Origin: Pseudomonadota bacterium
GTDB lineage: Bacteria; Pseudomonadota; Gammaproteobacteria; Xanthomonadales; Xanthomonadaceae
Direction of reading: 5' to 3'
Assembly: GCA_963205415.1 (NCBI GenBank)
Contig: CAUJJS010000254.1
Span: 52,098 to 116,097, forward strand
Length of the DNA stretch: 64,000 nt
This document shows positions 430 to 43,535 of this stretch, in pieces. Positions within the stretch are counted from its first letter, which is position 1; each line of letters begins with the position of its first letter. The position numbers and the translations under genes were made by a program. The notes under the pieces are model-generated. The model worked only from the letters and a program-made list of their open reading frames with translations, made no database searches and was not told where the DNA came from.

Positions 430-445
430 CTGCGAGATCGATACC

Positions 446-2643: not shown

Positions 2644-2680
2644 TTTTTTTGAACCCACCCCCAACCGACTGGAATTCCTT

Positions 2681-3469
2681 ATGACCCGCAAAACCAAACC
2701 CATACGCTCCGACATTGCCTGGAGTACCCCCGACCGCATCGAAGTGCACGGCAAGAGTCTGCCTGACGAGATTCTCGGCCATCTCAACCTGGGCGACATG
2801 GCCTACCTGCAGATCGTCGGGCGCATGCCGACACCGCAGGAATCGAACGTGTTCAACGCCATTGCGGTGACGCTGGTCGAGCACGGCATCACGCCCAGTG
2901 CGCTGGTCGCGCGACTGACCTACGCCGGTGCGCCCGAATCGCTGCAGGCCGCGGTGGCGGCCGGATTGTGCGGCCTGGGCAGCGTGTTCGTCGGCAGCAC
3001 CGAAGGCACCGCCAAAATGCTGTACGAGGCCCTGCCACCCGGAACGAAAGGAGCTGACCTAGAGCGCATCGCTTGCGACACCGTGGCAGCCTTTCGTGCG
3101 CGCGGCCAGATCATTCCCGGACTCGGTCATCCGCTGCACAAGCCGGTCGATCCGCGCGCCCCGCGCCTGTTTCAGATCGCCAAGGACAACGGTTTTTCCG
3201 GCGACTACATCCGGCTCGAACAACTGATCTGCGCCGAGGCCGAGCGGGTGGCCGGCAAGATGCTGCCGGTCAACGCGACCGGCGCCATCGGCGCCATCAG
3301 TTGCGAACTCGGGCTGCCCTGGAAGATCGTGCGCGGCATCGGCGTGCTGGCGCGCGCCATCGGGCTGGTGGGGCACATCCTGGAAGAAAGCAAGAACCCG
3401 ATGGCGGTCGAGATCTGGCAGCGGGTCGAAGACGAGGCCACCCGGCACATCAGACCACAAAGCGCCTGA
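2681..3469 (+). CDS. citryl-CoA lyase / citrate-synthase-like protein
   Basis: MTRKTKPIRSDIAWSTPDRIEVHGKSLPDEILGHLNLGDMAYL...IPGLGHPLHKPVDPRAPRLF. Confidence 0.85.
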   Translation: MTRKTKPIRSDIAWSTPDRIEVHGKSLPDEILGHLNLGDMAYLQIVGRMPTPQESNVFNAIAVTLVEHGITPSALVARLTYAGAPESLQAAVAAGLCGLGSVFVGSTEGTAKMLYEALPPGTKGADLERIACDTVAAFRARGQIIPGLGHPLHKPVDPRAPRLFQIAKDNGFSGDYIRLEQLICAEAERVAGKMLPVNATGAIGAISCELGLPWKIVRGIGVLARAIGLVGHILEESKNPMAVEIWQRVEDEATRHIRPQSA

Positions 3470-3600
3470 TGCGCTGTAGCTGGACAAATTCGATTTTCAG
3501 GGTGACAAGCTGCTCACTACCGGTAACCCCGACTGGGCCAGCGACCGACGCCTGTTTGATACCCTGGGGCTGATGGCCCGCCGAACTTTCTTGAAGGTGA
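3470..3600 (+). pseudogene. bioB 3'-terminal remnant (frameshifted)
   Basis: Frame-corrected reading ...NSIF(x)[24 protein letters not shown] matches the BioB C-terminus ([17 protein letters not shown]... in the intact bioB of this window); 1-nt loss after ATTTTC. Confidence 0.8.
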
Positions 3601-3604
3601 AACC

Positions 3605-3985
3605 ATGTACCGTACCCTCCTCAAGTCCAAGATCCACCGCGCCACAGTGACGGCATGCGAACTGCATTACGAGGGCTCCTGCGCGATCGACGAGGATCTG
3701 ATGGATGCTGCCGATCTGCGCGAGAACGAGCAAATCCACATCTGGAATATCAACAATGGTGAGCGCTTTGTCACCTATGCCATCAAGGGCGAGCGAGGCT
3801 CGGGCATGATCTCGGTCAACGGTTCAGCGGCACGCCGTGCTGCAGTGGGCGACCTCATCATCATCGCGGCCTTTGCCCAAGTGCATGAAGAGCGGGTCGC
3901 TGGGCATCATCCCCAACTGGTGTTTGTGGACGAGCACAACCGCCAAACAGCCTTGCGCCACCACGTGCCAACGCAGGCACTGTGA
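3605..3985 (+). CDS. panD: aspartate 1-decarboxylase
   Basis: [29 protein letters not shown]: pyruvoyl site Gly-Ser and typical N-terminus. Confidence 0.95.
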
Positions 3986-5337
3986 TGTCGGCAAGCCTCT
4001 CCAGCCGCAGCACGGCCAGCGTGTGGCATCCCTGCACCCAGATGAAACGCCACGAGACGCAGCCGCCGCTGGCGCTGGTGCGCGGCAGCGGTGCCTGGCT
4101 CTATGACGAAGCGGGCAAAGGCTACCTGGACGGCTTGAGTTCCTGGTGGGTCAACCTGTTCGGCCACGCCAACCCGCGCATCAACGCCGCCGTGAAAGCC
4201 CAGCTCGACACGCTGGAGCATGTGATGCTGGCCGGGTGTACCCATGCGCCTGTGGTCGAGCTTTCCGAGCGGCTGGCGGCGCTGACGGGGCATGCACTCG
4301 GGCATTGCTTTTACGCCTCTGATGGTGCCTCCGCCGTGGAAATCGCGCTCAAGATGAGCGCCCACTACTGGCGCAACAGCGGCCAACCCCTCAAGCGTGA
4401 CTTTGCCTGCCTCGCGCAGAGCTACCACGGCGAAACCCTGGGAGCCCTGGGCGTGACCGATGTGCCGCTGTTTCGTCAGGCTTACGATGGCCTGCTGCGA
4501 CCGGCCCACATCGTCGCCAGCCCGGATGCGCGTGCAGCCCGTCCGGGTGAAAGCGCGCGGGACGTGGCAGCGCGCGCGGCGGAAACACTGCGGCAGTTGT
4601 TCGAGGCCAAGGCCGACACCATCGCCGCGCTGATCGTGGAACCGCTGGTGCAGTGTGCCGCTGGCATGGCCATGCACGATGCGCAGTACCTTCAGGACAT
4701 CCGCCGCCTGTGCGACCAGTACCACGTGCATTTGATCGCCGATGAAATCGCCGTGGGTTGTGGCCGCACCGGCACCTTCTTCGCTTGTGAGCAGGCCGGG
4801 AATGGGGGAGGTGAGGGGGAAAGGATGTGGCCCGACTTCCTCTGCTTGTCCAAAGGCATCAGCGGCGGCTACCTGCCGCTGTCACTGGTGATGACGACGC
4901 CAAATGTCTACCAGGCTTTTTACGACGATGGCATCAACCGTGCCTTTTTGCATTCTCATTCCTACACCGGCAACCCGCTGGCCTGCCGCGCAGCCCTGGC
5001 TTGCCTGGATATTTTTGAAGAAGACGATGTGCTGAACGCCAACCGCGTGCGTGCCAGGCGGCTCAGCACCCTGCTCGCCCCTGTAGCCGCGCACCCGCAG
5101 GTGCGGCATTTCCGGCAGCAGGGCATGATTTGGGCCTTTGATGTTACGGTTGAAGATCCCGCGCATGCGGCCACCTTCTCGCGGCGCTTTCATGCCCTGG
5201 CCTTAGAAAGCGGGTTGATGTTGCGCCCCATCGGTAAAACCGTCTACCTGATGCCGCCCTATATCCTGAACGACCACGAACAGACATTGCTTGCCGAGGG
5301 CGTGCAAAGCGCGTTGTCCGAAGCGCTGCGAACCTGA
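3985..5337 (+). CDS. bioA: adenosylmethionine-8-amino-7-oxononanoate aminotransferase
   Basis: VWHPCTQMK...[16 protein letters not shown]...[20 protein letters not shown]...[15 protein letters not shown]. Confidence 0.95.
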
Positions 5338-5344
5338 AACCACC

Positions 5345-6526
5345 ATGCATTTGATCGACACCCTGGAGGCGCGCATGGCGCAACTCGACGCCCAACACCT
5401 GCGCCGCCGCACGCGCCCTACGCAATCGCCCTGTGAGCCCCATGTCAAGCTGAACAACCGTGATTGCCTGGCGTTTTGCTCGAACGACTACCTGGGGCTT
5501 GCCAACCACCCTGCGGTGGTGGCGGCCTTGCAGGAAGGGGCCGGGCTGCACGGCGCGGGCAGTGGTGCATCCCACCTCATCAGCGGACACAGCCAGGCGC
5601 ACGAGGCGCTGGAGCACCGGCTGGCGGAGTTTGTCAGCCCCCAGTTCGAGACCTGCCGCACGCTGTTTTTTTGCACCGGCTACATGGCCAACCTGGCGGT
5701 GACGCCTGCGCTGGCAGCCACGGGCGAGCCCACGGCGATTTTTTCGGAAGCGCTCAACCACGCCTCGCTGATCGACGCGGTGCGCCTGGCCCGAGGCGCG
5801 CGTGTGCATGTGTATCCGCACGGCGATTTGCGAACCCTGGAGACGAGGCTAGCGCAAGAGACAGCGACGAACAAGCTGATCGTGACCGACAGCGTGTTCT
5901 CGATGGATGGCGACATCGCACCGCTGCCGCAGTTGCTGGCCCTGGCCGAGCGCTATGGTGCTTGGCTGATCGTGGACGATGCCCACGGTTTTGGCGTGCT
6001 GGGTGCCGGTGGACGTGGCGTGCTGGAGCATTTCGGCCTGAAGTCTCCGCACATCGTCTACATGGGCACCTTGGGCAAGGCCGCCGGGGTAGGCGGGGCC
6101 TTTGTCGCGGCCTGCCCGCAAGTGATTGATTGGCTGGTGCAAAAGGCTCGCACCTACATCTTCAGCACCGCAGCGCTGCCGGCATTGGCGCACGCCCTGT
6201 GTACCAGTCTGGACGTGATTGCCGGGCTACAGGGGCACTCCCGCCGCCAGCACCTGCAAGCGCTGATTGCCCACCTGCGCGAACGCATGGCCAGCAGCTC
6301 GTGGCGCTTGCTGCCATCCGACACGCCCATACAACCGCTGATTCTGGGCAGCAATGAGACCGCGCTGGCCGTGTCTGCCCAGCTCGAAGCGCAGGGGCTG
6401 TGGGTTCCCGCCATCCGCCCACCGACAGTGCCACCGGGCACAGCCCGCCTGCGCATTGCGCTGTCTGCTGCGCACAGCATCAACGATGTGGACAGGTTGG
6501 CAGACACCCTGAAAGCACTGCAATGA
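5345..6526 (+). CDS. bioF: 8-amino-7-oxononanoate synthase
   Basis: [16 protein letters not shown]...[10 protein letters not shown]...[11 protein letters not shown]...[14 protein letters not shown]. Confidence 0.95.
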
Positions 6527-7248
6527 CACTGCCACCACCCCTACCACGCAGCCTGCCCCGTGCTGATTTTTTTGTCACAGGCACGGACACAGGCGTCGGC
6601 AAAAGTCTGGTGGCCGCCGCTTTGCTGCGCCACCTGGGGCGAGCCGGTCGGCGGACCGTGGGCATGAAGCCGGTGGCCGCAGGCGCGACACAGGTGGATG
6701 ACCGCTGGTGCAACGACGATGTGGAAGCACTGAGCGCGGCCAGCAATGTACAAGCCCCGGCGCCATGGGTATGCCCCTACCTGCTGCGGGACGCCATGGC
6801 ACCGCATATCGCCGCCGACCATGCGGGCGTCCACCTGAGTCTTGAGCATATGCGCGATTGTTTTGCACAACTGCAGTCGGTATCCGACAGCGTGGTGGTC
6901 GAAGGTGCAGGTGGTTTTTCTGTGCCGATCAATGCCACCGACACCTTGGCCGATCTTGCCCAAGTTTTGGCTGTGCCGGTCGTGCTGGTGGTCGGCATAC
7001 GCCTGGGCTGCCTGAACCACGCCTTGCTGACGGCGCAGGCGATCCGGCAGGCCGGTTTGCCCCTGGTCGGCTGGGTGGCCAACCACATCGACCCCGGGAT
7101 GTCGGCTCCGGTCGAGAATGTCAACGCGCTGGCCCAGCGGCTGGGCGCGCCCTGCTGGGCGCAGATTCCCTGGCAAATGCAGAGTCCTCGCATTAGTTTT
7201 GCAGATGGGTTGGAGGCAATTCCATCGGTCATTGTTCCGTCTTATTGA
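6523..7248 (+). CDS. bioD: ATP-dependent dethiobiotin synthetase
   Basis: [38 protein letters not shown]. Confidence 0.95.
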
Positions 7249-7261
7249 AAGAGAGTTTTTC

Positions 7262-8278
7262 ATGTCCTCTGTTGTCGAGCAAACCGTTACCCTGCATCGC
7301 CGCGCTGTTGCCATCGCCGCGCCCCAACCGGCGCGATGGACGGTCGAAGCCGTGCAAGCCCTATTTGCACTTCCCTTTCCTGAGTTGATGCACCGTGCCC
7401 AGACGGTACACCGGGAACACTTCGACCCTACCCAGATCGAATTTGCTACGCTGCTTTCGGTCAAGACCGGGGGCTGCCCAGAAGACTGTGGCTACTGCCC
7501 TCAATCCGCCAAGTTCGACACTGGCGTCGAGGCCAGCAAGCTGATGGAGCCCCAAGCCGTGCTGCAAGCTGCGCAACTCGCCAAGGCAGCCGGTGCCACG
7601 CGTTTTTGTATGGGTGCGGCCTGGCGCGCACCGAAAGACCGCGATATTGAAAAAATGGCCGAACTGGTCAGCACCGTCAAGGCCCTGGGGCTGGAAACCT
7701 GCGCTACGCTGGGAATGCTGAATGACGGCCACGCCGAAACCCTGCGCGATGCCGGGCTGGACTACTACAACCACAACCTTGACAGCGCACCCGATTTCTA
7801 TGGTGACATCATCACCACCCGTGACTATCAGGACCGGCTAGACACCTTGGAACGTGTGCGTGGTGCCGGCGTCAAAGTCTGCTGCGGCGGCATCGTAGGG
7901 ATGGGCGAGACACGTCTGCAACGCGCTGGCCTGATCGCCCAGTTGGCCAACCTTGACCCCTATCCTGAATCGGTGCCAATTAACAACCTAGTGCCCGTTC
8001 CCGGCACGCCACTGGCCGACCAGCCACCGCTCGACCCTTTCGAGTTCGTGCGCACCATCGCTGTGGCGCGCCTTACCATGCCCTTGGCGCGCGTGCGTTT
8101 GTCGGCAGGTCGCCAGCAGATGGGCGACGCGGTGCAGGCCCTATGCTTTTTGGCCGGTGCCAATTCCATTTTCTACGGCGACAAGTTGCTGACGACCGGC
8201 AACCCCGATACGCACGCCGATCTTGACCTGCTGCAGCGCCTGGGCCTGCGTCAAGCCACTACGGCTGCGACTGCGTGA
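7262..8278 (+). CDS. bioB: biotin synthase
   Basis: Radical SAM motif [55 protein letters not shown]. Confidence 0.97.
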
Positions 8279-8285
8279 GAACACT

Positions 8286-8607
8286 GTGAGCGAGCAAACC
8301 ACCCCACGCAAACCCCTGACCCTGCACCGCCTGCGTGAAATGCCCACCCTGGCGCAAAAAGTGACGCAAACGCTCACGATACCCGTCATCGGCATCGGTG
8401 CAATGCGTGGCCGGCAGCGGTCAGGTGCTGGTGCTGGTGCTACACGACATGCTGGCCGTAAGTCACGGCAAACGCCCCCGCTTTGTGCACAACTTCATGG
8501 ATGACAGCGCCTCGGTGCAATGTGCCGTGCCGTGCCGTGCAGTGCAGTGCTACGTCGAGGACGTGAAAGCCAGCCGCTTTCCCGTTGAGAACATCCATAC
8601 TTGCTGA
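8286..8607 (+). pseudogene. panB: panB (3-methyl-2-oxobutanoate hydroxymethyltransferase) internally deleted and frameshifted
   Basis: N-term VSEQTTPRKPLTLHRLREM runs directly into C-term VTQTLTIPVIGIGA, then shifts frame to GSGQVLVLVLHDMLAVSHGKRPRFVHNFMDDSASVQCAV..YVEDVKASRFPVENIHTC. Confidence 0.85.
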
Positions 8608-8684
8608 GCGGTTGCGAACCCAGCGTTAGGCCACGGCCAGCCCCCTATTGAGCCTCACCTCCGTCCATCCTGACCCAACGATAA

Positions 8685-9527
<843 letters not shown>

Positions 9528-9586
9528 GTCTCTTGAGCGGAGCGAGACCGGCACGGTCAGATGTTATTTATTCAGCAGAGAATTCA

Positions 9587-10192
9587 ATGTCACTACCACC
9601 ACCCCAAACCAGGAAGCATCTGCACACGCGCAGGGTTACGTTTCGCGGCTACCAGCGTGAGGACGGGCTCTGGGACATCGAGGCCGAGATAGTCGACGTT
9701 AAAACCTATGTCCTGAAAACGCCTGACCGAGGCACACTGCGACCGGGCACCCCGGTCCACGACATGGCGATCCGGGTGACAGTGGACGACAGCATGACGA
9801 TCCGCGAGATCGTCACGTCCATGACCAGTACGCCGTTTCCCGAATGCCTGCAGGCCCAGGACCCGATGCAGCAAATGGTTGGCTGCACGATGGGGCCGGG
9901 CTGGCGTCACACCATCGAGAAAAACCTCGGTGGAATCAAGGGCTGCACCCACTTGCGCGAATTGCTGTTCAACATGGCGACGGCGGCTTACCAGACTATT
10001 CCTGGCTATCGCGAGCATCAGAGCAAGCTGGCAGGCCTGCCAGCTCCGTCCGCAGGACAACCGCCATACCACTTGGGCAAATGCATGTCTTGGGATTTCA
10101 ATGGGCCGGTGGTTAAGCGCCATGAGCCGGAGTTTTTTGGCTGGCAGCCGCTGAAGAAGGCCGCGAAACCGGAGTATTTGGTTGGCTTGTAG
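9587..10192 (+). CDS. DUF2889 domain protein
   Basis: HTRRVTFRGYQREDGLWDIEAEIVDVKTYVL...CTHLRELLFNMATAAYQT. Confidence 0.75.
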   Translation: MSLPPPQTRKHLHTRRVTFRGYQREDGLWDIEAEIVDVKTYVLKTPDRGTLRPGTPVHDMAIRVTVDDSMTIREIVTSMTSTPFPECLQAQDPMQQMVGCTMGPGWRHTIEKNLGGIKGCTHLRELLFNMATAAYQTIPGYREHQSKLAGLPAPSAGQPPYHLGKCMSWDFNGPVVKRHEPEFFGWQPLKKAAKPEYLVGL

Positions 10193-10586: not shown

Positions 10587-11543
10587 ATGGGCAAAAACTT
10601 TAGGCCAAGCGATCGAGTTTCTGATCAGTTGAACGAGACGGCGATGCAATCCGTCGCGATGCTCAAGGCGGCGATCAATGGTGAAACGTATGAAGCTGTT
10701 GCTGCCAAATTTGGCAAGTCACGAACCGCCGTTGAGAGGCGAATCAAGGCCATTGCGACCCAGTTGACCAAGGCAGTCGGCATTCAAGGACTCAACGAAG
10801 AGGGGGCTGCTTTCGTTCGCCGCCTGCGCTTGCACCGGGACGCCATCCTGATCGCGCTGGAAGCCTTCGAGCCAACAGCATCCTGCGGGCCTCGGGAGAA
10901 CCGCATCGTCTCCAGGGAGGAAATCGCCCAGGCTGCGCAGCGCATCAGAGGCCGCAGCAGCCGACCGTGGCACGATCTCTCTTTGTTCTACATGGTGTTT
11001 GCCACTGGAGCCAGACCGCTGGAAATCGCCCGGCTGGAGGTGCGGGACTACCTCGATGTGGACGGCAGCGTGCGCCGGGAATCGCAGATACGTGCTGAAG
11101 TAGCTATCATCGGAAAGATCAGACCCTTGCATTTCAGCAGTACCAGGCTTGACGAGGTGCTGGCGCTGTACCTGCAGGAGCGGCTGACACTGAAGCTGGG
11201 CGTACATACGGAGGGTGCCTACCGGGGCCTCGATCCCGACAGCCGTCTGTTCCTCTCAGCTACGGGCGAAGGCTTCAAGATCACACCTTACGGCAAAGAA
11301 GGACAGCGGCGCTTTCTGTGCCGTCCGATTCTGGAGACCTACGGCAAACTGTTCCGGTATTCCGAGCTTGAGGGCGTATCAGCGCTATCAATAAGGCGCA
11401 CGGTGATTTCTCGGCTGTATGAACGCGGCGCCGATGAAGACCAGGTAGGGATCCTGCTGGGCATCAGCGAACGAAGCGCGGTGCGGGAACTGCTGTCCAG
11501 GCAAAAACCGACCCTTTTGGCGCTGGTCGACGAACTGATCTGA
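10587..11543 (+). CDS. tyrosine-recombinase-like protein with atypical catalytic positions
   Basis: FATGARPLEIARLEVRDYL and SALSIRRTVISRLYERGADEDQVGILLGISERSAV fit a phage-integrase fold; the usual HxxR, GH and Tyr positions look substituted. Confidence 0.6.
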   Translation: MGKNFRPSDRVSDQLNETAMQSVAMLKAAINGETYEAVAAKFGKSRTAVERRIKAIATQLTKAVGIQGLNEEGAAFVRRLRLHRDAILIALEAFEPTASCGPRENRIVSREEIAQAAQRIRGRSSRPWHDLSLFYMVFATGARPLEIARLEVRDYLDVDGSVRRESQIRAEVAIIGKIRPLHFSSTRLDEVLALYLQERLTLKLGVHTEGAYRGLDPDSRLFLSATGEGFKITPYGKEGQRRFLCRPILETYGKLFRYSELEGVSALSIRRTVISRLYERGADEDQVGILLGISERSAVRELLSRQKPTLLALVDELI

Positions 11544-12854: not shown

Positions 12855-13026
12855 CGCACCGGCAGATTCGCCGGCGTTGGGTGGAGCTGTGCCGCAGGTC
12901 GTGCTTTAGCCGATGTCGAAATGTCGCGTCTTTCGCGCGGCTTGTTTCTGGAGTGTTTCCTGTGCATCCGTGAACATCGTGCTGCTTCGGTTGCCAATGC
13001 AACCCCAACCAACCCGACAGCAGTTT

Positions 13027-13482
13027 ATGAATCACCAACAGGTAAGCGAGATATGTTTCGAAGAGACCTACACCGTGCCAATCGATCAGACGGCACGTTC
13101 ACTGTTCACGCGTTTGCCGCATGGGAAACACTATGCCGAGACGCTCATCGAGTGTCTGGCCACCGGGTACCTGATCGCGGTTGTCGAGTCGATTTGCATT
13201 CGGGAGATGCACCGGCAGATCGATCCCACAGTGGAAGTTGTTGTCGGCAAGACCATCCACTTGGAGCACTGCGGCCCAATACCGCCCGGTGCGACGATTC
13301 GTCTGCAGGGCTGGGTAGAGCGGCTGGGCCAGCGTAGCGCCACGTTTTGCATCAGGGCCTACGACGACCATGAACTCGTTTGCGATGGCAAAGTGACGTT
13401 GGTGGCGGCAGACCGTGCATCGATGGAGTCAAAAATTGCGACCAAGGTAAACGATCTTCTAAAAATTGACGTCGTTTCATAG
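13027..13482 (+). CDS. hotdog-fold thioesterase (fluoroacetyl-CoA thioesterase/FlK-like)
   Basis: LATGYLIAVVESICIREM...VVVGKTIHLEHCGPIPPGATIRLQGWVERLGQRSATFCIRAYDDHELVCDGKVT. Confidence 0.65.
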   Translation: MNHQQVSEICFEETYTVPIDQTARSLFTRLPHGKHYAETLIECLATGYLIAVVESICIREMHRQIDPTVEVVVGKTIHLEHCGPIPPGATIRLQGWVERLGQRSATFCIRAYDDHELVCDGKVTLVAADRASMESKIATKVNDLLKIDVVS

Positions 13483-13634: not shown

Positions 13635-15071
13635 ATGTCGAATGCAGTGGTCAAGGTCAAGGTCAATGGCAGCCAGTCTATGCTGCCCACCGTGCTGGGA
13701 CAAGGCCCGGCACGGATCCCCACAGGCGGCAAGATCCGCGCCGGCATCAAGGTTCTGACGGCGAAGGCGGCTGCGCACCCCGATGCCCGCGCCATCTACG
13801 AGCGGGGCGTGGCAGCAGGCGACTCGTTTATCCAAATCGAGCAGGCGCTTGCCGCAGCGCTGCCCCAGCTCAAAACCCCGCTCATCCCCAAGAACGTGTC
13901 CTGGTTCACGGTGCGTGGCCAGGACTTTTCCAACCCCGAGATCGCCCGTCAGATTCTGGAGGTCCATGGGGAAGACCGGGATGATGGCGTTAAGCGCCTC
14001 TACCGGTTCCCGGTCGTGTTCCCATCCGACTTCTGGCAGGTGGTGATGCCCCACGAGCTGGCGGCCTGGGGTGCTGCAGAGAAGCACTACTGGTCCGAAT
14101 ACTCGCCGGATGGCCGTGTGCGCTACTGCAAACAGCACGCATCCGTGCCCTTTGACGACACGGGCAAGCGGGTGATTCGCTTGTTTGGCGGGCGCAAGAC
14201 GATGTTGCGTGAACAGAACGGTGGTTTGTGTGACCCGGAGTCCTGCAGTGAATACCAACTTCGCCAGTGCAACCTGACTGGGCGCTTCCTGTTCTTCATC
14301 CCGGGCATCCGCTCCATCAGTGCCTTCGAGCTGCACACCAACAGCTTTTATGCGATGAACATGGCCATCCAGAAGTTCGAGACCATCAGCTTTCTGCGCG
14401 GCGGGCGCATCTCGGGCTTTCTGGACAGCCAGCGCACGCCGTTCTACCTGACCAAGAAGCTGATGGATGTGGCGCGCATCGACGAGCAGGGTCGGGCAGT
14501 GCGGGTGCCGCAATGGATCATCGATCTGGAAGCACCGGTCGATGTGACCGCGTTGATACGCCACAACGAGGACCAAGGCGCTGCCATCGTCCAAGCGCAA
14601 CTTGCGGCGCACGTGCTTGACGGTGCCTTAGGCCCAGGGAATGGTGTTGACACCGCCGATCAACCGCCCGTAGACGCAGAGCCAGCAGGCAACCAACGCC
14701 AGAGCCAGCCAGAGAGCGAGGTCGGCTGGAGGGATATTGTCACGAAGGGGCCAACGCTTGAACAAATTGCTGACAAGGTCCAATCCTATGGCATCAATCT
14801 GGCCCAGTATGACGCCTACGCTGACCAGCGCTGGGGCAGTGGCTGGCGTTTCAATGCTTTTGGTCGCCAGCACGCCCATGAGGAACTGGCGCGTTACCGG
14901 AACGACCCGAAGGGCTACCTCGACAAGATCGACTGCGTGATGCGGGGGGGCATGAGCGGGCCGCGAACTTTCAAGGCTTGGTCTGACCACGCCCTTGACC
15001 CCAAGGGGGGCGGGACGAAGCTGTCGGAACCGACCCCATCGTTCAAAGCACAAGCCCAGGAGGCCCCATGA
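13635..15071 (+). CDS. Gp3-like / recombination-directionality-factor-like protein (hypothesis)
   Basis: NGGLCDPESCSEYQLRQCNLTGRFLFFIPGIRSISAFELHTNSFYAMNMAIQKFETISFLRGGRISG resembles Gp3-like RDF signature (Cys pair, LPGI.., T-S-.., GGRI). Confidence 0.5.
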   Translation: MSNAVVKVKVNGSQSMLPTVLGQGPARIPTGGKIRAGIKVLTAKAAAHPDARAIYERGVAAGDSFIQIEQALAAALPQLKTPLIPKNVSWFTVRGQDFSNPEIARQILEVHGEDRDDGVKRLYRFPVVFPSDFWQVVMPHELAAWGAAEKHYWSEYSPDGRVRYCKQHASVPFDDTGKRVIRLFGGRKTMLREQNGGLCDPESCSEYQLRQCNLTGRFLFFIPGIRSISAFELHTNSFYAMNMAIQKFETISFLRGGRISGFLDSQRTPFYLTKKLMDVARIDEQGRAVRVPQWIIDLEAPVDVTALIRHNEDQGAAIVQAQLAAHVLDGALGPGNGVDTADQPPVDAEPAGNQRQSQPESEVGWRDIVTKGPTLEQIADKVQSYGINLAQYDAYADQRWGSGWRFNAFGRQHAHEELARYRNDPKGYLDKIDCVMRGGMSGPRTFKAWSDHALDPKGGGTKLSEPTPSFKAQAQEAP

Positions 15072-16384
15072 TCCGCATTGCCCAGTTTTCTGATCTTCAC
15101 TACAGCGCCAAGAACCTGGTCGAGGCCGACCGCTGCTTCAGCCATGCCGTGGACCGTGCCATCGCCGTGAAAGTGGATGCCGCTGTGGTGTCGGGTGACT
15201 CGACGGACCATGCGCTGGACCTGCATTCACCCGCTGTGGAGCGGCTGGCACGCAATATCCGGCGTTTGGCCGACCATTGCCCGGTGCTGATGCTACAGGG
15301 CACGTTCTCGCATGAACCGCCGGGCACACTGTCGATGTTCCGGTTGCTGGGCGGACGCTACCCGGTGCATGTCGCCGACCGGATCGGGCAGGTGGGGCTC
15401 ATGGATGACGGGCGCTGGGTAGCGTCGGAAGACTGGCAGTTCACGGTCTGGCCCAGTGGGCTGCGTGCCTTGTTTTCTTGCGTGCCGACGGTGAACAAGG
15501 CGGTTGTGGCGGCCACCGTGGGTGCCAGTTCAGCGGCAGAAGCTGTGGGGGAGCATCTGGCTGTGCTGCTGCGTGGGTTTGCCGCCAGCAACCTGGCAGC
15601 ACGCGATCAAGGCCTGCCCACCATCGCGGTGTCGCACGGCACAGTGTTCGGCTGCATTTCAGAGCATGGTGTGCCCATGGCGGGTTTTGATCATGAATTC
15701 ACGACCGGCGCGCTGTTTGCGGCTGAGGCGAGCGCCTTCATGCTGGGCCACATCCATCGGCATCAGGCCTGGGAGAACAAGGCTGCGGCGTTTGAGGGCA
15801 GGGCGGGACATCAGTGCATCGCCTATCCCGGCTCCATCGGGCGTTTCCACTATGGCGAGGAGGGCGACAAAGGCTTCCTGCTGTGGAAGATCGATGCAGA
15901 CAAGGTGCGCTTCACGCTGGAGCCCACGCCGGCGCGCCGCACCCTTGACATCGTGTTTGAAGGCAAACCCGATCTGGCCGGGTTGCGCGAAGTTGTCGAG
16001 CGGGAAGGCATTGACGGGGCCTTTGTTCGGGTGCGCTGGACCGTGGCCGACGAGGATCGACACGAAGTGAACCGCGCGGCGATGCAGAAGACGCTGGAAG
16101 GCGCAGCGGAAATCAAGCTAGAAGGACGCATCGTGCCGGTGGTGCGCACACGGGCGGCGGGAATCTCCCAACTCGCCAGCCTTGCGGACAAGGTGCGGGT
16201 TTGGGCGACATCCACTGAAGCGAAGCCCCAGCCGCTGCTCGACTGCCTTCAAGCGCTGGCAAGCCAGGCGCCGGAGGCGATTGCCGAGCGAACCCTGTGC
16301 GGGACTGCGGTGCCCACGGCGGAAGTCATGGCGGAGTTGTCATTGACCGAAGACGCAGATGCGGAGCCCGCACTGTTGTTCTGA
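15068..16384 (+). CDS. SbcD/Mre11-like metallophosphoesterase
   Basis: IRIAQFSDLHYSAKN...VVSGDSTDH...LMLQGTFSHE...FMLGHIHRHQ calcineurin-like motifs; 4-nt overlap with the upstream ORF. Confidence 0.85.
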   Translation: MIRIAQFSDLHYSAKNLVEADRCFSHAVDRAIAVKVDAAVVSGDSTDHALDLHSPAVERLARNIRRLADHCPVLMLQGTFSHEPPGTLSMFRLLGGRYPVHVADRIGQVGLMDDGRWVASEDWQFTVWPSGLRALFSCVPTVNKAVVAATVGASSAAEAVGEHLAVLLRGFAASNLAARDQGLPTIAVSHGTVFGCISEHGVPMAGFDHEFTTGALFAAEASAFMLGHIHRHQAWENKAAAFEGRAGHQCIAYPGSIGRFHYGEEGDKGFLLWKIDADKVRFTLEPTPARRTLDIVFEGKPDLAGLREVVEREGIDGAFVRVRWTVADEDRHEVNRAAMQKTLEGAAEIKLEGRIVPVVRTRAAGISQLASLADKVRVWATSTEAKPQPLLDCLQALASQAPEAIAERTLCGTAVPTAEVMAELSLTEDADAEPALLF

Positions 16385-16466
16385 CGCGGCCACCCAAGGC
16401 GCGAATGGACTTGAACAAGGTCCATTGCGCGCGAGACTGGTTCCATCCTTTATCTGGAGCACGATC

Positions 16467-18944
16467 ATGCAAGTTCTTTCATTGACCCTCAAGGGGTTTC
16501 GGGGCATCCGCGATGGCTTGGGCCGCGACGAGCTGAGCCTGGACTTCGAACAGCTGGCCGATGGCGCCGAGCTGGTCGCCATTGCTGGCGCCAATGGGCG
16601 GGGCAAGACCACCGTCATGGACAACATGCATCCCTACCTGACCATGCCCTCGCGCGCCGCCGTGGCGGGGCCGGGTGGTTTTTCATACTACGACCACGTC
16701 TGCCTGCCCGAGAACGAGAAGGACCTGACCTGGGCGCACGAGGGGCGCAGCTACCGTTCGCAGGTGGTGATCCGCCTCAATGGCCGGCGCAAGACCGAAG
16801 CTTTTCTGTTCGCACTGGGCGATACGGGCAGCTGGATGCCGCTGCGGCTTGATGATGGCACGGTCTCCGATGGCAAGGTGGAAACCTATAACCGTTGCGT
16901 GGAGGCGATCTGCGGCAGTGCCGACACCTTCTTTACATCGGTGTTCTCCGCTCAGGGCAAACGCCAGCTCAGCACCTACCGCAATGCGGAGATCAAGACC
17001 TTGCTGGCGGATTTGCTCGGGCAGGAGGAAATCCGCGCCCTGGGTCAGAAGGCGGGTGAGACGGCGCGGCTGCTCAAGGCCGGGCTGTCGGCCATCCGGC
17101 AGGAACTGGCCGGTTTCGATGAGGAGGCCGGGCGGGTCTCAAGCGAGCGGCGACGGCTTGATGGCGCGTCGGGTCGGGTGGTGCAGAGCCTTGCCGCCCG
17201 GCAACTGGCGCAGCGTGACCTTGAAGCCGTTAGGGCCCGGCATGCCAGGCTGTCGGCCGAACGCGACCAGTCACGGGTCACCGAGACACGGCGTGCGCAA
17301 TTGCTGGCCGAGCGCAAGGCGCTGGTCGATACGGGTACCCAGGCCATCGAGGCCCTCAAAGCACAAGACCAGGGCGAGCAGCAGCGGCTGGAACGGCTGG
17401 TGCAGCGCATCCTGAACCGGGTGAACCAGGAACGCACCCGCTGGCAGGCTTTGCAGCATACGCAGCGGCAGTGTCGGGAGGTCTTGGAGGCTGCCGGAGC
17501 AGTGCGGCGCGCCGTTGCCCGACTGCCGCTGGCCGAGCGTGTGCTGTCGTTGCGTAATGCGCAGACTGCGACGAGTCGTCAGCAGGCCCAGCGCCTGACC
17601 CAATGCCAAGGGGCCGAGCACATGGCCGAGCAGAAGCTTGCAGGCATTGAGCGGGAGGCGGGTAAGGCGGTGCTCCAGGCCGAAGAACTGGCCCACCGCT
17701 TCGGCCTGACGAGCGAGGTGCCTTGTGCCGGAACCGACCTGCAGGGCCAATGCAAGCTGCTGGGAGATGCGCGCGACGCGCAGGCCTTGATCCCGAGTGC
17801 CAAGGGGCAGATCACCCGGTTGGTACGGGAGAAGGCGCAGGCGCAATCGGAGTTGGCCGCCGCCCGCCAGCTACGGGAGGCCCTGGTCGATGCGCCGCAG
17901 GCTGTTGCGTGGGCTGAGCACAGGGGCGATAGGGCCCGGGAGCGTGCGTCACGGCTCGCGGTACTCGCTGCGAAGGCAGGTGAAATGGCGCAAGCGCGCA
18001 CCGCACTGGTCCACGTCGAGCAGGAACTTGGGGCGCTGGGGCAAGGTGATGCTGCCCAATGGGATGGGGCAGAGACCTCCGAGGAGCAGGCCGAACGCCA
18101 GCAGATCGACAGGGCACGACAGGTGGTTGCCGAACAACTGGCGCGGCAGTCCCAGCATTTTCGGGCAGGGATGAACCGGTTGGAAGAAACGCTGACTGCC
18201 ATGCCTGTGCCCTACGACGAGCAGCAACTCGCTGCGGCTGTCCAGGCCATGGCGCAGACCGAAGAGTCGGTTGCAGGAGCAGAGCAATCACATCTGGCGG
18301 TGGTGCGGGATGCCCAGCAACTGGAGGCACTGTGCCATCACACCCAGTCGCTCGCGGCGCGGCGCTCGCAGGTTCAGACCCGAATCGCCCACGTGGAAGC
18401 CGAACTGGGTGGCTGGAACCTGTTCGCGCGCTGCATGAGCAATGACGGCTTGATCGCCCTGGCCATCGACGATGCCGGTCCGGCTCTGTCGGGGCTGGCC
18501 AACGACCTGCTGCTGGCGTGCTACGGTTCGCGCTTCACGGTGTCCATCCATACCTTGGTGGAGACCGGCAAGGGCGAGCAGCGGGAAGGCTTTGACATCG
18601 TCGTGCACGATGGCGATTCGGGCGAGAGCAAGAGTGTTGGCTTGATGAGCGGCGGTGAACGCGTCTGGATCAACGAGTGTTTGATCCGGGCGGTCGCCCT
18701 GTACCTGGTCCAGAACTCTGGCCGGCGCTATGCGACGCTGTTCTCGGACGAAGCCGATGGGCCGCTGGACCCCGAGCGCAAGCGCATGTTCATGGCGATG
18801 AAGCGGGAGGTCTTGCGCCTGGGCGGCTATGAGCGGGAGTTCTTCGTTTCGCAGACGCCAGAGCTGACGGCCATGGCTGATGTGGTGATTGACCTGGATG
18901 CGCAGATGGTGTCGGCGCATGCTGCGGAATGCGTGGCCGTTTGA
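16467..18944 (+). CDS. SbcC/Rad50-like AAA ATPase
   Basis: Walker A GANGRGKTT, coiled coil with PCAGTDLQGQC hook-like Cys pair, signature LMSGGERVW, Walker B TLFSDEADGPLD. Confidence 0.85.
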   Translation: MQVLSLTLKGFRGIRDGLGRDELSLDFEQLADGAELVAIAGANGRGKTTVMDNMHPYLTMPSRAAVAGPGGFSYYDHVCLPENEKDLTWAHEGRSYRSQVVIRLNGRRKTEAFLFALGDTGSWMPLRLDDGTVSDGKVETYNRCVEAICGSADTFFTSVFSAQGKRQLSTYRNAEIKTLLADLLGQEEIRALGQKAGETARLLKAGLSAIRQELAGFDEEAGRVSSERRRLDGASGRVVQSLAARQLAQRDLEAVRARHARLSAERDQSRVTETRRAQLLAERKALVDTGTQAIEALKAQDQGEQQRLERLVQRILNRVNQERTRWQALQHTQRQCREVLEAAGAVRRAVARLPLAERVLSLRNAQTATSRQQAQRLTQCQGAEHMAEQKLAGIEREAGKAVLQAEELAHRFGLTSEVPCAGTDLQGQCKLLGDARDAQALIPSAKGQITRLVREKAQAQSELAAARQLREALVDAPQAVAWAEHRGDRARERASRLAVLAAKAGEMAQARTALVHVEQELGALGQGDAAQWDGAETSEEQAERQQIDRARQVVAEQLARQSQHFRAGMNRLEETLTAMPVPYDEQQLAAAVQAMAQTEESVAGAEQSHLAVVRDAQQLEALCHHTQSLAARRSQVQTRIAHVEAELGGWNLFARCMSNDGLIALAIDDAGPALSGLANDLLLACYGSRFTVSIHTLVETGKGEQREGFDIVVHDGDSGESKSVGLMSGGERVWINECLIRAVALYLVQNSGRRYATLFSDEADGPLDPERKRMFMAMKREVLRLGGYEREFFVSQTPELTAMADVVIDLDAQMVSAHAAECVAV

Positions 18945-19008
18945 ATCGGCATCCCTGCATCAGGTGCGCAGTGTCACTTTTGGCAAAATACCGCCAACTA
19001 TTTCAACA

Positions 19009-19491
19009 ATGTATCTCGGTGACAGAGGAGCCTGTTTGACACCCGAACGATTTCACACCCATTCTGTGGGGCCGGATGAAGCGGCCCTGCGCGCTGCATT
19101 CCTCCAATGCAGCGCGCTGATGCAACAGCGCAATAGCACGACCATGGGTCTGGCCGTCCACAACAAAAGCAATCTGGACGGCGTTGTGCGTACCGTCTTT
19201 GGCGACAGCGTGGTCAAGGTGCTGGACCGGGACAACAAACTGGACTTGAAAGGGATCACGATCCACCTGCTGACCGAGAAAATCCAACTCCGAAAGCTGG
19301 AAGGGCCTGTCGTAGCCGCCTTCGTCGACCCCCACAAGCTTGACAAGATCGTGTCCAGCGCAGGGGTCACCGATATTGTGTTTGTGCCATGGGCGGTGGA
19401 AGAGCTTCCCATCTACCTGGCAGAGCATCCTTTGTCGCAGGAGATTTTTCGTTCGCCGTCGCTTTACGGGTCGATGGCCGACGGCGCTTGA
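19009..19491 (+). CDS. hypothetical protein
   Basis: ORF in same orientation after the SbcC-like gene; ATG at 19009. Confidence 0.6.
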   Translation: MYLGDRGACLTPERFHTHSVGPDEAALRAAFLQCSALMQQRNSTTMGLAVHNKSNLDGVVRTVFGDSVVKVLDRDNKLDLKGITIHLLTEKIQLRKLEGPVVAAFVDPHKLDKIVSSAGVTDIVFVPWAVEELPIYLAEHPLSQEIFRSPSLYGSMADGA

Positions 19492-21225: not shown

Positions 21226-21807
21226 TCAGATCAGGCCACGTTCAGCAAACGACAACACTTGGTCGCCTGCCACAATCAAATGGTCGATTACGCGCACGTC
21301 CACCAGGCTCAGCGCTGTTTTCAGCGTTTGCGTCAGGTGCTCATCGGCACGACTGGGCTCGGCATGCCCACTCGGATGGTTGTGGGCGATGACGACAGCG
21401 GATGCGTTTCGGGCAATCGCGCCCTTGACCAGTTCGCGCGGATAAACGCTGGTCTGGGTCAAGGTGCCCCGAAACATCTCCACTGCTTCGATCAACTGGT
21501 GTTGCGCGGTCAGGTACAACACCAGAAACACCTCATGTTCCAGGTTGGCACAGTGCAGGCGCAGCCAATCGCGCAGCGCCTGGGGCGAATGCATGACCGG
21601 ACCAGTGCACATCTGGGTCAGCAGGTCACGTAGCAGCAATTCGCGGGCTACGCCGAGTTTGTGGGTCAGCGCCGAATCGTTGGCGGCGGCGCCGTGGTAG
21701 CCCGCTTCATGGTCACCGACATGGGGTTCAGTATCAAGAAAATCCCGGACCGGCGGCGCGAGCAACTCTCGGACCAGGTCGGAACGGGACAGAAAGGATG
21801 GATTCAA
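21226..21807 (-). CDS. radC: RadC/JAB (MPN) domain protein, TTG start
   Basis: VIAHNHPSGHAEPSRADEHLTQTL...DHLIVAGDQVLSFAERGLI; AGAGGAGAACGCC upstream of TTG. Confidence 0.9.
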   Translation of the reverse strand: MNPSFLSRSDLVRELLAPPVRDFLDTEPHVGDHEAGYHGAAANDSALTHKLGVARELLLRDLLTQMCTGPVMHSPQALRDWLRLHCANLEHEVFLVLYLTAQHQLIEAVEMFRGTLTQTSVYPRELVKGAIARNASAVVIAHNHPSGHAEPSRADEHLTQTLKTALSLVDVRVIDHLIVAGDQVLSFAERGLI

Positions 21808-21876
21808 GGCGTTCTCCTCTATAAACAGAAAAGCGGAAACGCCGATCCCGAGGGGAACAAGGTTCCCGCTCGGGAT
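21808..21876 (-). promoter_or_regulatory. structured 5' leader (radC-RNA-motif-like), copy D
   Basis: Nested stems ATCCCGAG/CTCGGGAT and GGGAAC/GTTCCC, then GGCGTTTCC...GGAGAACGCC pairing with the SD. Confidence 0.7.
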
Positions 21877-21905
21877 GCGCAGGCCAGGGCATGCGCGGTT
21901 GATAA

Positions 21906-21927
21906 GGCAGGTGTCGACTGCGACGCC
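21906..21927 (-). repeat. 22-nt hairpin box GGCGTCGCAGTCGacACCTGCC
   Basis: One of four copies on the minus strand upstream of minus-strand genes. Confidence 0.7.
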
Positions 21928-22269
21928 GGCCAAAGACCGGATGGGCACTCCGCGATGGAATGCACAGGGATCACCCGCATAGTCTGGCGCGGTGATGGGA
22001 TGTGTTCAAGTGGGGGTGCCACGACACCACCCGAAAATGTCGTAAAAGATCGGGTGATTTCGGTGGCGTGCGCCGGGAGGCGGCCGTCTGGTGTTGGACT
22101 TGTTGCAGGGACGCGACGTGGTGTTCCAGGTGGGTTCGCAATTCACAGTGAAGTGACATAGGCCCGCGACTGGAGTCATGCTGGAAATATCTTTAAGGCG
22201 CGCCACAGAAAACCAACGACATGCGGGTCAAATTCGGCCAAGATACTGGGCAAACCCATTTGCTGGGGT

Positions 22270-26922: not shown

Positions 26923-29900
26923 TCAAGCGACCTGTCTAACCTCTTCGGTATCGACTTTCGCGCTGCCCATCTCATCCTTGTCCAGATCAAGCTGTTTGAG
27001 CAGCTCTCGCTGACGGGCGAGCAGATTCACCAGACGCCCTTCGTGCTCGAAGGTCCGTGCCAGTTCCAGCCGGATGTCGTCCAGCCGCTTGCGCCGCACC
27101 TCCAATTGCACAACTGCATCGGTGTGGTGCTTGACCACCGATTCCAGTGCCGCCATCAGGCTAGCCACGAGGGCCGGACCCGTCTGGTACGGTTCAGAGT
27201 TGTACAGGCAATGGCCAGACAGGTACAGGTTGGGCACTTCCTCGCCGCGTGCCGCCAGGATGCCCAGATCAAACCCACCAAAGCGGCCAACCACCCGTTC
27301 AATCATGCGGGTGCCGGTGCGCACCTCTTCTTTGGCTGCCTTGACCAGACCCCGCAGGACTTCCCCCACGGTATCCGGCCCGGTGACCGGTCGACCCGCC
27401 AGTTCCAGGGCAATGCCCTGCATGGTTTGCGGCTCGATACGCGCCACGTCCTGGGCATACAGCGCAATCTTCTTCTCCAGGGCTTCGATCATCATCGGCA
27501 GCCGCCCCACCTCGCTTTCATTGGCGTAGCGCTGATTGCGCCACACCGAGAACAGCGTTGACAGTTTGGCCACCTCTGCGTCCACACCAGCTTTTTCGAT
27601 GACAAGCGGATTGCCGGAGGCCAAGGCTTTGACCTCGGCATATGACAACGTCGCCAGTTCCACATCTTCCAGTGATCGGATGCCCTTGTCGCCCTTCATC
27701 ACCTGGGCGATGAAGCGCGCCTTGGTCTCCAGCGTTTGCCACAGGTACGCATCGAAGCTCTGCTCCGTCACGTACCTGAATATCTCCACGTCCTCGCACT
27801 CATTCCCTTGGCGCAGGATGCGCCCCTCTCTTTGCTCGACGTCACAGGGACGCCAGGGCGCATCGAGGTGGTGCAGGGCGCACAATCGGGTTTGCACATT
27901 GGTGCCAATACCCATTTTCGCGGTCGACCCGAGCAGCACCCGGACCCGTCCCTCACGCACCGCCTTGAACAGCGTGGCTTTCTGGACGTCGGTGTCAGCA
28001 TCGTGCACAAAGGCAATCTCCTTGTCAGGCAGGCCCGCATCGATCAGCCGTTGCCGCAAATCGTCGTACACGCTGAACCTCTTGTCCCCCTTGGGCGATG
28101 ACAGATCACAGAACACCATCTGGGCACCACGGAAGTCCGATGTCCTTCGCCAGATGTCCGCCACCTCGCGCACACAGGCGGCCACCTTGCCCTTGGCGTC
28201 GAACCTGGCAGTCGGCACCACCAGCCGGAAATCCAGCGCCGCCTTGCGGCCGTCCGTGGTGATCGCCAGCATGTTGTCGTCCTGCGGCTTCACATGGCCG
28301 CTGCGGATGGCTTCCGCCCGCAACACCAGGGTCTGCACAAAAGCCTTGAGCGCCTTGCTGGCCGGACAGGCCACGATGCGTGGTTTGCCACCGCGCAGAG
28401 GTGGTACCGGCAGGTTCAGCATCTCCGCCGTGCGGATGTCGGCCACTTCACCGAATACTGCCATCAACTCGGGCACGTTGATGAAACGGGCAAACCGCGT
28501 GTGCATGCGGTAGCCACTGCCGTCCGGTGCAATTTCCAGTGCCGTGACGCTCTCCCCGAAGGTGGCGGCCCAGGCATCAAACTGCTGCAACCCGAGCTCC
28601 TGCAGCCGGTTCGGCTGCAGGTAGCGCATCATGGTGTGGATCTCCGCCATGGTGTTGGCCACCGGCGTCGCGGTGGCGAATACCACCCCACGCTGCGCAT
28701 GCCCATGAATCTGCATGGTGTAGCGCGTCTTCAGGAACAGGTCGAACGCGCGTTCCGAGCTGGTCAGCGGTAGGCCCGCGACGCGGGTCATCTTGGTGAA
28801 CCGGTACAGGTTCTTGTGCAGATGCGCCTCGTCCACGAACAGGCAGTCGATGCCCAGCAGTTCCCAGGTGAGCAGGTCATCCTTCTTCTGGTCCGCCAAC
28901 AGGCGCTCCAGCCGGGCGGCCCAGTTCTTCTTCATCGCCTCCAGTTGTTTGACGATCCGGTTGGACTTGTCATTGCTCTTTTCAGCGCGTACTGCCATCT
29001 CTAGCTCATGAATAATCTCCTTGATAAAGCGCTCCGTAAATTGCGGTGACATCTTGATGCGCTCAAAGCTTGAGTGCGTGATGACCACTGCGTCCCAGTC
29101 GCCCGTGGCAATGCGCGACACCAGTTCGCGCCGGCGGTCGCCTTCCAGGTCCTCCTTGCTGGCCATCAGCACCGATGCATTCGGGTAGAGCCGCACAAAC
29201 TCCGCCGTGTACTGGCTCAACATATGGTTCGGTACCACATGGCAAGGCTTGGTGATGAAACCCAGGCGACGCAACTCGATGCTGGCGATCACGCACACCG
29301 CCGTCTTGCCCGCGCCGACCACGTGGAACAGCCCGGTGTTACCCGACTGCACGATTCGCCAGACGGAATCCAACTGGTGCGGGTGCAGCGTGAAACAGCG
29401 GGAGAATCCCGGCAGCTTCAGGTGTGAACCATCGAACTGCCGTGGCCGGGTGGCGTTGAACAGCTCGTTGTAGATGCGGCACAGCTTTTCTCGGCGGGCT
29501 GTATCGTCGAAGGCCCAGTTCGCGAACCGTTCCTTGATCAGTCCCAGCTTCTCGCGCGCGGCCAGCGTCTCACCCGGATTGACGACGTACTTGTCCGTCT
29601 CGGGGTCCGGGTCACGCACCGTGGGCACCTGCACGTTCAGCGCGCATTGCACCAGCTCCATTGCGTTCATGCGCGAGGTGCCGAACTCCTGCGTCACCTT
29701 CACGTTCTGGCGCGCTTCCCAGTCGCCATAGCGTACCGACCAGGCACCGGCCTCGGCCGAATAGCTGACCTGGCAGTCCTTGAGTTCAAGAACCTCCTGG
29801 ACAAACGACTCGACGTCGATGGCCGGGATCCAGACCGCACCCAGGCGCGGCTCGATGGACGCTGGTGGCAGGTCTTCGGGTTGCACCTGCTCCAGCGCGT

Positions 29901-31911: not shown

Positions 31912-31985
31912 GGGTGTGTTCTCCAAAAAAAATGGGGAACACAGCCACCCACTGGGGAGACGTGCTCCCCGGGTGGGAATGAATG
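31912..31985 (-). promoter_or_regulatory. structured 5' leader (radC-RNA-motif-like), copy C
   Basis: CCACCC-GGGGA-GCACGTC-TCCCC-AGT-GGGTGG then GTGTTCCCC-T8-GGAGAACAC. Confidence 0.7.
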
Positions 31986-32169
31986 AGAGGGTCAAGAATG
32001 ACCCCGTGTTTGAACGCGAGCACGCCGGGCTTCGGGAGAAGCTGGTGGGCTCAATGGGCTATGAAAAAGATGAAATGGCCTGTCGTCAGACGACGACAAG
32101 CGGATAAATCAAGCCGGGGTAAGAACCCCGGCACGAATGACAGCCGCTAGGTGCGGCGCCAACAGGGAA

Positions 32170-43167: not shown

Positions 43168-43431
43168 GTAGCCCCACTTTCTAGCAGTACCATGTGTGAG
43201 AACGCTCGTGGCAATGTTCACGAGTTAGCCCCTTTCATGATGGTAAATATTTTAGGTCAAATGCCATGTTCTGGGAACAGTCTGGGAACGATTGGCGAGG
43301 GCTATGGTGAAACGCTTTGGGACGGTGTGACACCACTATTTGCAATAATTCTTAATATTATCAATAAGTTAGGCGAATTTCATGGCATCCAATGACGTCT
43401 CAAGAAGTGCATTAAAAAGGTGTATATACGT

Positions 43432-43478
43432 GGCTACGAACCAAGGGGTCGTGGGTTCGATTCCTGCCAGCCGCACCA
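43432..43478 (+). other. 3' fragment of tRNA-Arg(ACG)-like gene: presumptive attR of the island
   Basis: CTACGAA anticodon-loop-like, GGTCGTGGGTTCGATTCCTGCC T-arm and AGCCGCACCA acceptor/CCA, without a 5' half upstream. Confidence 0.75.
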
Positions 43479-43483
43479 ACTTG

Positions 43484-43519: not shown

Positions 43520-43535
43520 CATGCCCGCGCCCGCG

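Follow-up and report, generated by a model that had tools for sequence, protein, structure and literature searches.

Three adjacent genes in the window, the 64,000-nucleotide stretch of Xanthomonadaceae DNA analysed here, probably make up a recombination or replication cassette carried by a mobile element, in which a Gp3-like protein occupies the slot of a nuclease partner; on this reading the role of phiC31 gp3 in excision would be a later use of the family. The genes, P1, P2 and P3, are genuine, follow the order described in an earlier note on this DNA, and lie in an island of mobile DNA. Relatives of P1 almost always sit beside a nuclease gene and not beside an integrase, which suggests that DNA recombination or replication, and not excision, was the original job of these proteins.

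The three genes and their products

P1 (13635-15071; this and all other features of the three genes are on the forward strand) matches the Pfam Gp3-like family PF18897 with 96.2 bits (E=2.9e-27), above the gathering cut-off of 23.6, and so belongs to the family in which the earlier note had placed it. The Gp3-like domain proper spans residues 32-262 (13728-14420) in the Pfam match and the alignments, and carries an insertion at about residues 42-85 that the ICE and phiC31 types lack. Four cysteines, C165, C199, C204 and C212 (14127-14270), are invariant in alignment A1, the last three also in the mixed alignment A5, and the set is a putative zinc site. A C-terminal helical domain (about residues 370-438; 14742-14948) is present in most SbcCD-associated Gp3-like members and absent from the ICE type. 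AlphaFold models of P1 built from alignment A5 and from the narrow alignment A7 had mean pLDDTs of 51 and 50, with confidence limited to the helical insertion near the N-terminus and to the C-terminal helices, the latter at roughly 70-90 in both models. PF18897 was the sole profile match of P1 at E<0.1 in a comparison that included RecT and the other known single-strand annealing families. Searching PDB chains with the single sequences of P1, P2 and P3 gave no significant match. A tblastn search of phage records with P1 returned nothing at E<0.01; contigs bearing the trio are nevertheless found in IMG/VR.

P1 is read as 478 amino acids and overlaps P2 by 4 nt, from which the earlier note had proposed translational coupling. 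The overlap is there in the window sequence, but it is not conserved and the coupling is not supported. In the four closest relatives P1 ends about 40 codons sooner, at the equivalent of position ~14948, leaving a gap of about 120 nt before P2. The overlap arises because a 2-nt deletion in a G-run (14944-14950, near 14947; DNA alignment A6, against four relatives) carries the window's frame past the relatives' stop codon. On this alignment, residues ~439-478 of P1 and the overlap itself either belong to this copy alone or stem from an assembly error. Relatives L009-L012 are 82-86% identical to P1 across residues 1-438.

P2 (15068-16384) is, by its sequence, a divergent SbcD/Mre11-like phosphoesterase. 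Its similarity to metallophosphoesterases and SbcD is weak and under the curated cut-offs (phrog_100, 1e-5; TIGR00619, 8e-5 and 22.5 bits where 77.65 are needed), and a profile search reached the Thermotoga SbcD/Mre11 structures 2q8u and 4o24 at E=0.0011. Seven residues, D9, H11, D44, H82, H190, H228 and H230, are invariant in the alignment, as are the motifs DxH, GD, H and GHxH. In motif III, GTFSHE replaces GNHD/E (15299-15316; GTxxH[DE] across the lineage), so that the histidine is retained and the usual asparagine is missing.

P3 (16467-18944) is SbcC/Rad50-like by its match to phrog_77 (6.6e-26), and the alignments show its Walker A (GANGRGKT), signature (SGGE) and Walker B (LFSDEADGPLD) motifs to be invariant or nearly so. 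It most likely starts at 16467, giving 825 amino acids, rather than at an ATG further upstream (16359), since the start MQ/MR..L.LTL is conserved at the former. The earlier note had taken P2 and P3 for an SbcD/SbcC pair with an unusual hook, and both observations hold. The cysteine pair C420-x8-C429 (17724-17753; PCAGTDLQGQC in P3) is invariant in alignment A4 and in all seven aligned SbcC-like relatives, and the same spacing occurs in IMG/VR members L054, L055 and L057. None of the ten related SbcC-like proteins inspected contains a CxxC, the usual zinc-hook motif.

Gene neighbourhood and serine integrases

The conservation of the three genes as neighbours, which the earlier note had made part of its own refutation test, is borne out. 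The order P1>P2>P3 on one strand is kept in 46 of the 51 Burkholderiales plasmids with all three genes, and in 49 of 52 plasmids P2 follows P1 at no more than 3 kb. IMG/VR contigs L054-L057 and L124 also carry the trio, as do the more distant L126 (27-30% identity) and G217, the same as L121 (27-35%). Exceptions are two Janthinobacterium plasmids with P1 and no P2, a Paraburkholderia plasmid with P2 and P3 and no P1, and two Polaromonas plasmids with P1 10-13 kb away. Carriers of the trio in PLSDB are mostly free plasmids, where it is part of the backbone, with tra genes, helicases and further conserved genes close by; its neighbours in L055, a temperate phage-like contig, are CI/S24-type and DnaT-like genes.

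Nuclease genes are the almost constant neighbours of the wider family. Among 150 family genomes with 18 Gp3-like loci, YqaJ lies directly upstream in 14 and the SbcCD-like pair is the neighbour in 4. The 16 loci in 399 phylum genomes comprise eight with YqaJ, three with the SbcCD-like pair, three with DUF3799, one with a phrog_298 exonuclease resembling phiC31 gp1, and one that is degenerate. Pooling both surveys, with the window's own locus counted in each and related elements of common ancestry making the counts other than independent events, a nuclease of one of these four types adjoins 33 of 34 locus observations, the exception being the degenerate one. The type of nuclease tracks the Gp3-like clades in the tree. 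In phiC31 itself, gp3 is the second gene downstream of gp1 (also a phrog_298 exonuclease, 1.1e-55) and precedes the primase gene. IncA/C and SXT-type elements, which we took to have a Gp3-like gene beside bet/exo, were dropped as a further case when plasmid pRA1 gave no PF18897 match.

Serine integrases show no such association. They occur in 4 of the 17 genomes with Gp3-like genes and 37 of the 150 overall (Fisher P=1), and at none of the 18 loci in these genomes is one found on the same contig. No serine integrase scored above the cut-off in six IMG/VR and five plasmid records, in a search where the phiC31 control was positive. The earlier note had seen no serine integrase, and indeed there is no large one on the window's contig (C254), the genome's only large serine recombinase being on contig C241. 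The integrase that the island itself encodes (41806-43221) is a tyrosine recombinase; no direct repeats of at least 12 nt flanking the island were found between 1-10000 and 43000-43700.

This pattern supports the suggestion that P1 serves some purpose other than directing a serine integrase. The earlier note had gone further and supposed that a recombination directionality factor (RDF) had been repurposed. The direction was probably the reverse: as family members in different genomes go with end-processing nucleases rather than serine integrases, the use of gp3 as an RDF in phiC31 looks derived, and its role in excision would be a later co-option of an older function. Deleting gp3 from phiC31 abolishes plaques, from which the authors inferred a need in phage DNA replication besides excision (PMC3836970).

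Proposed function and alternatives

In our proposal, P2 and P3 together make an ATP-dependent nuclease of the Mre11-Rad50 (SbcCD) kind, which would open and trim DNA ends or hairpins that arise while the element is replicated, transferred or repaired. P1 would serve this nuclease as a dedicated partner, a Gp3-like protein containing zinc that takes up the nuclease product, most likely by binding the exposed single strand or by recruiting annealing or replication proteins. It would hold the slot taken elsewhere by RecT-type annealases beside YqaJ and DUF3799 exonucleases. That Gp3-like proteins are nuclease partners, like everything said here on function, is read from gene neighbourhood, and their biochemical role is inferred. 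More tentatively, the Gp3-like family could be an unrecognised class of phage and plasmid recombination proteins, zinc-containing mediators of strand binding or annealing with at least four unrelated end-processing nucleases as partners. The phiC31 RDF would then be a specialised descendant, its control of the integrase having evolved from the element's recombination machinery.

P1 could instead be a structural or regulatory cofactor that recruits the nuclease to the replication fork or a transfer intermediate of the element, or restrains it, with no part in strand binding or annealing. The constant association with very different nucleases would fit this, as would the invariant cysteines, the clade-specific insertion and C-terminal helical domain of the SbcCD-linked clade, and the finding that phiC31 gp3 acts through protein-protein contact and does not bind att DNA alone (PMC3132441). 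However, if one partner serves four unrelated types of nuclease, a DNA product common to them all is an easier explanation than direct contact, and we regard a pure cofactor role as rather unlikely.

It is very improbable that P1 works as an RDF, binding an integrase to drive the island's excision, with the nuclease genes as incidental neighbours. P1 and phiC31 gp3 do belong to the same Pfam family, and the best Foldseek match of the first, low-confidence P1 model (pLDDT ~50) was the phiC31 RDF (9teh_I), a non-significant match (E=0.027, prob 0.41); the second low-confidence model gave unrelated, non-significant matches only. OB-fold and SSB matches of the first model were dropped, as the second did not reproduce them. 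Seven gp3 positions are required for integrase binding (PMC5814800), and of these the aligned SbcCD-type members keep G27, C117 and G119 unchanged, with M105 (L/M) and L170 (I/L) conservative, but P154 and P168 differ. G27, G119 and L170 may be fold residues, since most ICE-type members keep them as well. An RDF reading also sits badly with the missing large serine integrase, on the contig and in the 11 related records, with the tyrosine recombinase of the island and with the mostly free plasmids that carry the trio. We know of no gp3-type RDF for a tyrosine recombinase.

That the trio defends the element's host against phages or plasmids, or is the anti-defence device suggested earlier, is just as improbable: although defence commonly uses SMC/Rad50-like ATPases with nucleases, and P3 has weak PADLOC matches (mads_3, 2.7e-8; PtuA, 5e-4; AriAB, 8e-4), these are generic to the ATPase, P1 and P2 have none, nothing speaks positively for an anti-defence role, and the trio keeps company with the backbone and phage genes described above.

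We found no mention of "Gp3-like" or PF18897 in the literature searched. The diversity of large serine-integrase RDFs, and what they did before they controlled excision, is to our knowledge an open question. Reviews have proposed co-option from other functions as the origin of RDFs (PMC3132441). The recurrent pairing of Gp3-like proteins with end-processing nucleases provides a testable ancestral function for an RDF, with phiC31 gp1/gp3 or the trio of pMOL28, a plasmid of Cupriavidus metallidurans CH34, as simple model systems. Should Gp3-like proteins anneal single-stranded DNA or load onto it, they would be a new family of recombination proteins for the conjugative elements of Proteobacteria.

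Relation to known systems

The closest characterised relatives are the gp3 RDFs of phiC31, phiBT1 and TG1 (PDB 9teh), which have the same Pfam domain (1.7e-17 for phiC31 gp3 against 2.9e-27 for P1) and share the family's glycine and cysteine positions; the phiC31 gene, too, has an exonuclease gene (gp1) and genes for replication close by. P1 differs in its helical insertion, extra C-terminal domain and additional cysteines, and its locus in that the SbcCD-like pair takes the position of gp1 and a serine integrase partner is missing. In the RecE/YqaJ/DUF3799-RecT modules of phages, RecT has YqaJ and DUF3799 as common neighbours in Firmicutes phages (PMC8093625), and Gp3-like proteins are found in that slot, next to these two families of nuclease. 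P1 and RecT, however, have no detectable sequence similarity, and annealing by P1 is putative. RecT and a Gp3-like gene occur together in none of 49 YqaJ loci, an exclusion that is not significant (P=0.32).

P2 and P3 resemble SbcCD, Mre11-Rad50 and the gp46/47 type of phage T4 in their ATPase and signature motifs, most of the phosphoesterase motifs and the adjoining nuclease and ATPase genes. They differ in falling under the TIGR00619 cut-off, in motif III, in the C-x8-C hook and in their linkage to a Gp3-like gene. The RDF of Bxb1, gp47, is likewise of metallophosphoesterase type, with RDF and replication roles (PMC3836970), but P2 could not be aligned with it (BLASTP E=1.0) and was rejected as a relative. 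Leptospira phage LE1 keeps the canonical GNHD motif, and its upstream gene gp76, considered as a hidden Gp3-like gene, has no PF18897 match; its gp74-gp75 are an adjoining phosphoesterase and SMC ATPase, and P3 is similar to the latter over the C-terminal ATPase region (42% over 152 amino acids).

The three-gene cassette and its conservation

The Gp3-like gene P1 (13635-15071), the SbcD/Mre11-like phosphoesterase gene P2 (15068-16384), and the SbcC/Rad50-like ATPase gene P3 (16467-18944), all on the plus strand, probably form an element-borne recombination nuclease cassette of a known kind with an unexpected partner family. Conservation of the three genes as neighbours was a check set in advance, and it was borne out. 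Relatives of P1, P2, and P3 occurred in 57, 53, and 56 PLSDB records, almost exclusively from Burkholderiales; P1 and P2 were ordered on the same strand within 3 kb in 49 of the 52 records sharing both, and all three were ordered in 46 of 51. The trio lies in the plasmid backbone of, for example, pMOL28 (Cupriavidus metallidurans), pBcn842-1, and PPGU16_p2. It is also found on IMG/VR contigs (L054-L057, L124, and, at ~27-30% identity, L126). One of these, L055, carries genes for an S24-type repressor, a DnaT-like protein, and a cytosine methylase, and resembles a temperate phage region.

P1 belongs to the Gp3-like family, as the earlier note had proposed. It matches PF18897 over residues 32-262 with 96.2 bits (E=2.9e-27) against a curated cut-off of 23.6, above the 64 bits (1.7e-17) of phiC31 gp3 in a scan of the same format. 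Four cysteines (C165, C199, C204, and C212) are invariant in the P1 subfamily. Two models of P1 reached a mean pLDDT of only 51 and 50; their one relevant match in Foldseek, 9teh (phiC31 RDF), was non-significant.

In the four closest relatives of P1, from Rhodoferax (L009-L012, 82-86% identity), the protein stops at about residue 438, followed by a gap of ~120 nt before P2. The window is 2 nt shorter in a G-run near 14947, which carries the frame beyond the relatives' stop, adding about 40 residues and producing the 4-nt overlap with P2. The overlap described earlier is thus present in the window sequence but not conserved, and could be an assembly error.

Partners of Gp3-like genes

As a recombination directionality factor (RDF), phiC31 gp3 works through contact with the integrase, to which it binds (PMC5814800, PMC3132441). 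Gp3-like genes showed no link to large serine recombinases in the genomes surveyed. Of 150 same-family genomes, 37 encode such an enzyme, as do 4 of the 17 with a Gp3-like gene, which is no enrichment (Fisher P=1); none shared a contig with a Gp3-like gene in this survey, which bears out the earlier remark that no serine integrase was visible. Nor did any exceed the cut-off in 11 further records that carry Gp3-like genes, six from IMG/VR and five of plasmids, while the phiC31 control was detected. A phiC31 derivative without gp3 gave no plaques, which its authors take to mean that both DNA replication and excision require gp3 (PMC3836970). The RDF genes of phiC31 and Bxb1 lie near replication genes, and replication roles are stated for both proteins (PMC5311408).

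The association of Gp3-like genes with nucleases is well supported. The same-family genomes gave 18 matches: 14 were full-length ICE-type proteins, each preceded at a distance of ~550 nt by a YqaJ exonuclease domain encoded on the same strand, and four (the window, G107, G113:C11, and G126) accompanied P2 and P3. Among 16 matches in 399 phylum genomes, eight adjoined YqaJ, three (the window, G401, and G217) were with P2 and P3, three (G299, G416, and G168) were near the PD-(D/E)XK nuclease DUF3799, one (G225) adjoined a small phrog_298 exonuclease, and one was a degenerate copy. DUF3799 was 2.2 kb downstream in G416 and on the opposite strand in G168. phiC31 gp1, two genes ahead of gp3, is also phrog_298 (1.1e-55). 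As YqaJ is rare, chance adjacency is expected at ~0.0002 per locus, with loci sharing descent being non-independent.

In a tree built from 29 Gp3-like domains, clades match the type of partner nuclease: one SbcCD-linked clade (98/99 support, with the nuclease-less L013 inside it), one YqaJ clade, and branches linked to DUF3799 and to phrog_298. Some branches are very long, which makes any count of partner changes approximate. In Firmicutes phages, the commonest neighbours of RecT genes are YqaJ and DUF3799 (PMC8093625), both of which also partner Gp3-like genes. At L117:2971-4929 a DUF3799-linked Gp3-like gene precedes an SbcC-like ATPase (phrog_77, 1.5e-18) without a phosphoesterase, possibly an intermediate arrangement.

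The SbcD/SbcC-like pair and its proposed role

The earlier note called P2 a calcineurin-type nuclease. Its SbcD/Mre11-type similarity is confirmed, but the profile matches are weak (PF00149, 0.017; phrog_100, 1e-5; TIGR00619, 8e-5) and miss every curated cut-off. The P2-family profile finds Thermotoga SbcD/Mre11 structures (E=0.0011), and D9, H11, G43-D44, H82, H190, and G227-H228-x-H230 are kept across seven relatives. Motif III reads GTFSHE where GNHD/E is usual; GTxxH[DE] is the lineage form, distant L121 and L126 included, whereas the Leptospira phage LE1 phosphoesterase retains GNHD.

P3, described previously as a Rad50-like ATPase with unusual cysteine spacing, fits that description: it matches the phage SbcC family phrog_77 (6.6e-26) and shows Walker A, SGGE, and Walker B motifs together with an invariant VPC-x8-C hook pair, with CxxC absent from all ten SbcC-like proteins checked. 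Neither L126 nor LE1 showed the VPC-x8-C pattern. P3 most likely starts at the conserved MQVLSLTLKGF at 16467, the listed ATG at 16359 being non-conserved. In Rhodoferax L009 (4703-10141) and L010 (7308-12746) the first 56 and last ~80 codons of a split sbcC flank an intact, ~70% identical copy. Between them also lie small ORFs, one of which is HTH-like, and an MBL-fold-like gene. A similar 5' fragment and a second copy are present in L045. These look like allelic replacement.

Given the conserved motifs and established knowledge of Mre11-Rad50, P2 and P3 probably form an ATP-driven nuclease that would process ends and hairpins. From its gene slot, P1 is most likely a strand-binding or annealing mediator that would then act on the nuclease product; the main rival is a protein cofactor recruiting or restraining the nuclease.

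The surrounding island

From roughly 2-3 kb up to 43.5 kb, GC is ~60%, down from ~70%, and this region has a P4-type tyrosine integrase (41806-43221) and a ParM-type actin (39541). The trio therefore lies in an integrated island, in agreement with the mobile setting proposed earlier. The nearest plasmid relative, from Piscinibacter, has the integrase-DUF1173 pair in common with the window, plus the trio. Two further tyrosine-recombinase-like genes are a PF12834/PF12835 integrase (37144-38394) and an HTH plus degenerate integrase adjoining the DUF1173 gene (10587-11543).

The left end (3605-9527) carries cofactor-biosynthesis cargo: class-III (BioA-like) and class-I/II (BioF-like) aminotransferases, a biotin-synthase-like radical SAM protein, and genes that, from the look of their sequences, resemble panD and panC. 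A fluoroacetyl-CoA thioesterase-like (FlK/4HBT) gene (12913-13482) lies just upstream of P1. Directly past P3, a 200-aa ORF (18889-19491) has no match in Pfam or PHROG; the Rhodoferax relatives conserve it from MYLGDRG onward. The island bears ParM/ParB and a 1690-aa protein (26923-31995) whose sole match is a weak Eco57I-type methylase. A RadC gene often follows ICE-type Gp3-like genes (L038-L042, L059-L079), and the island has one at 21226-21948, 2.3 kb beyond P3.
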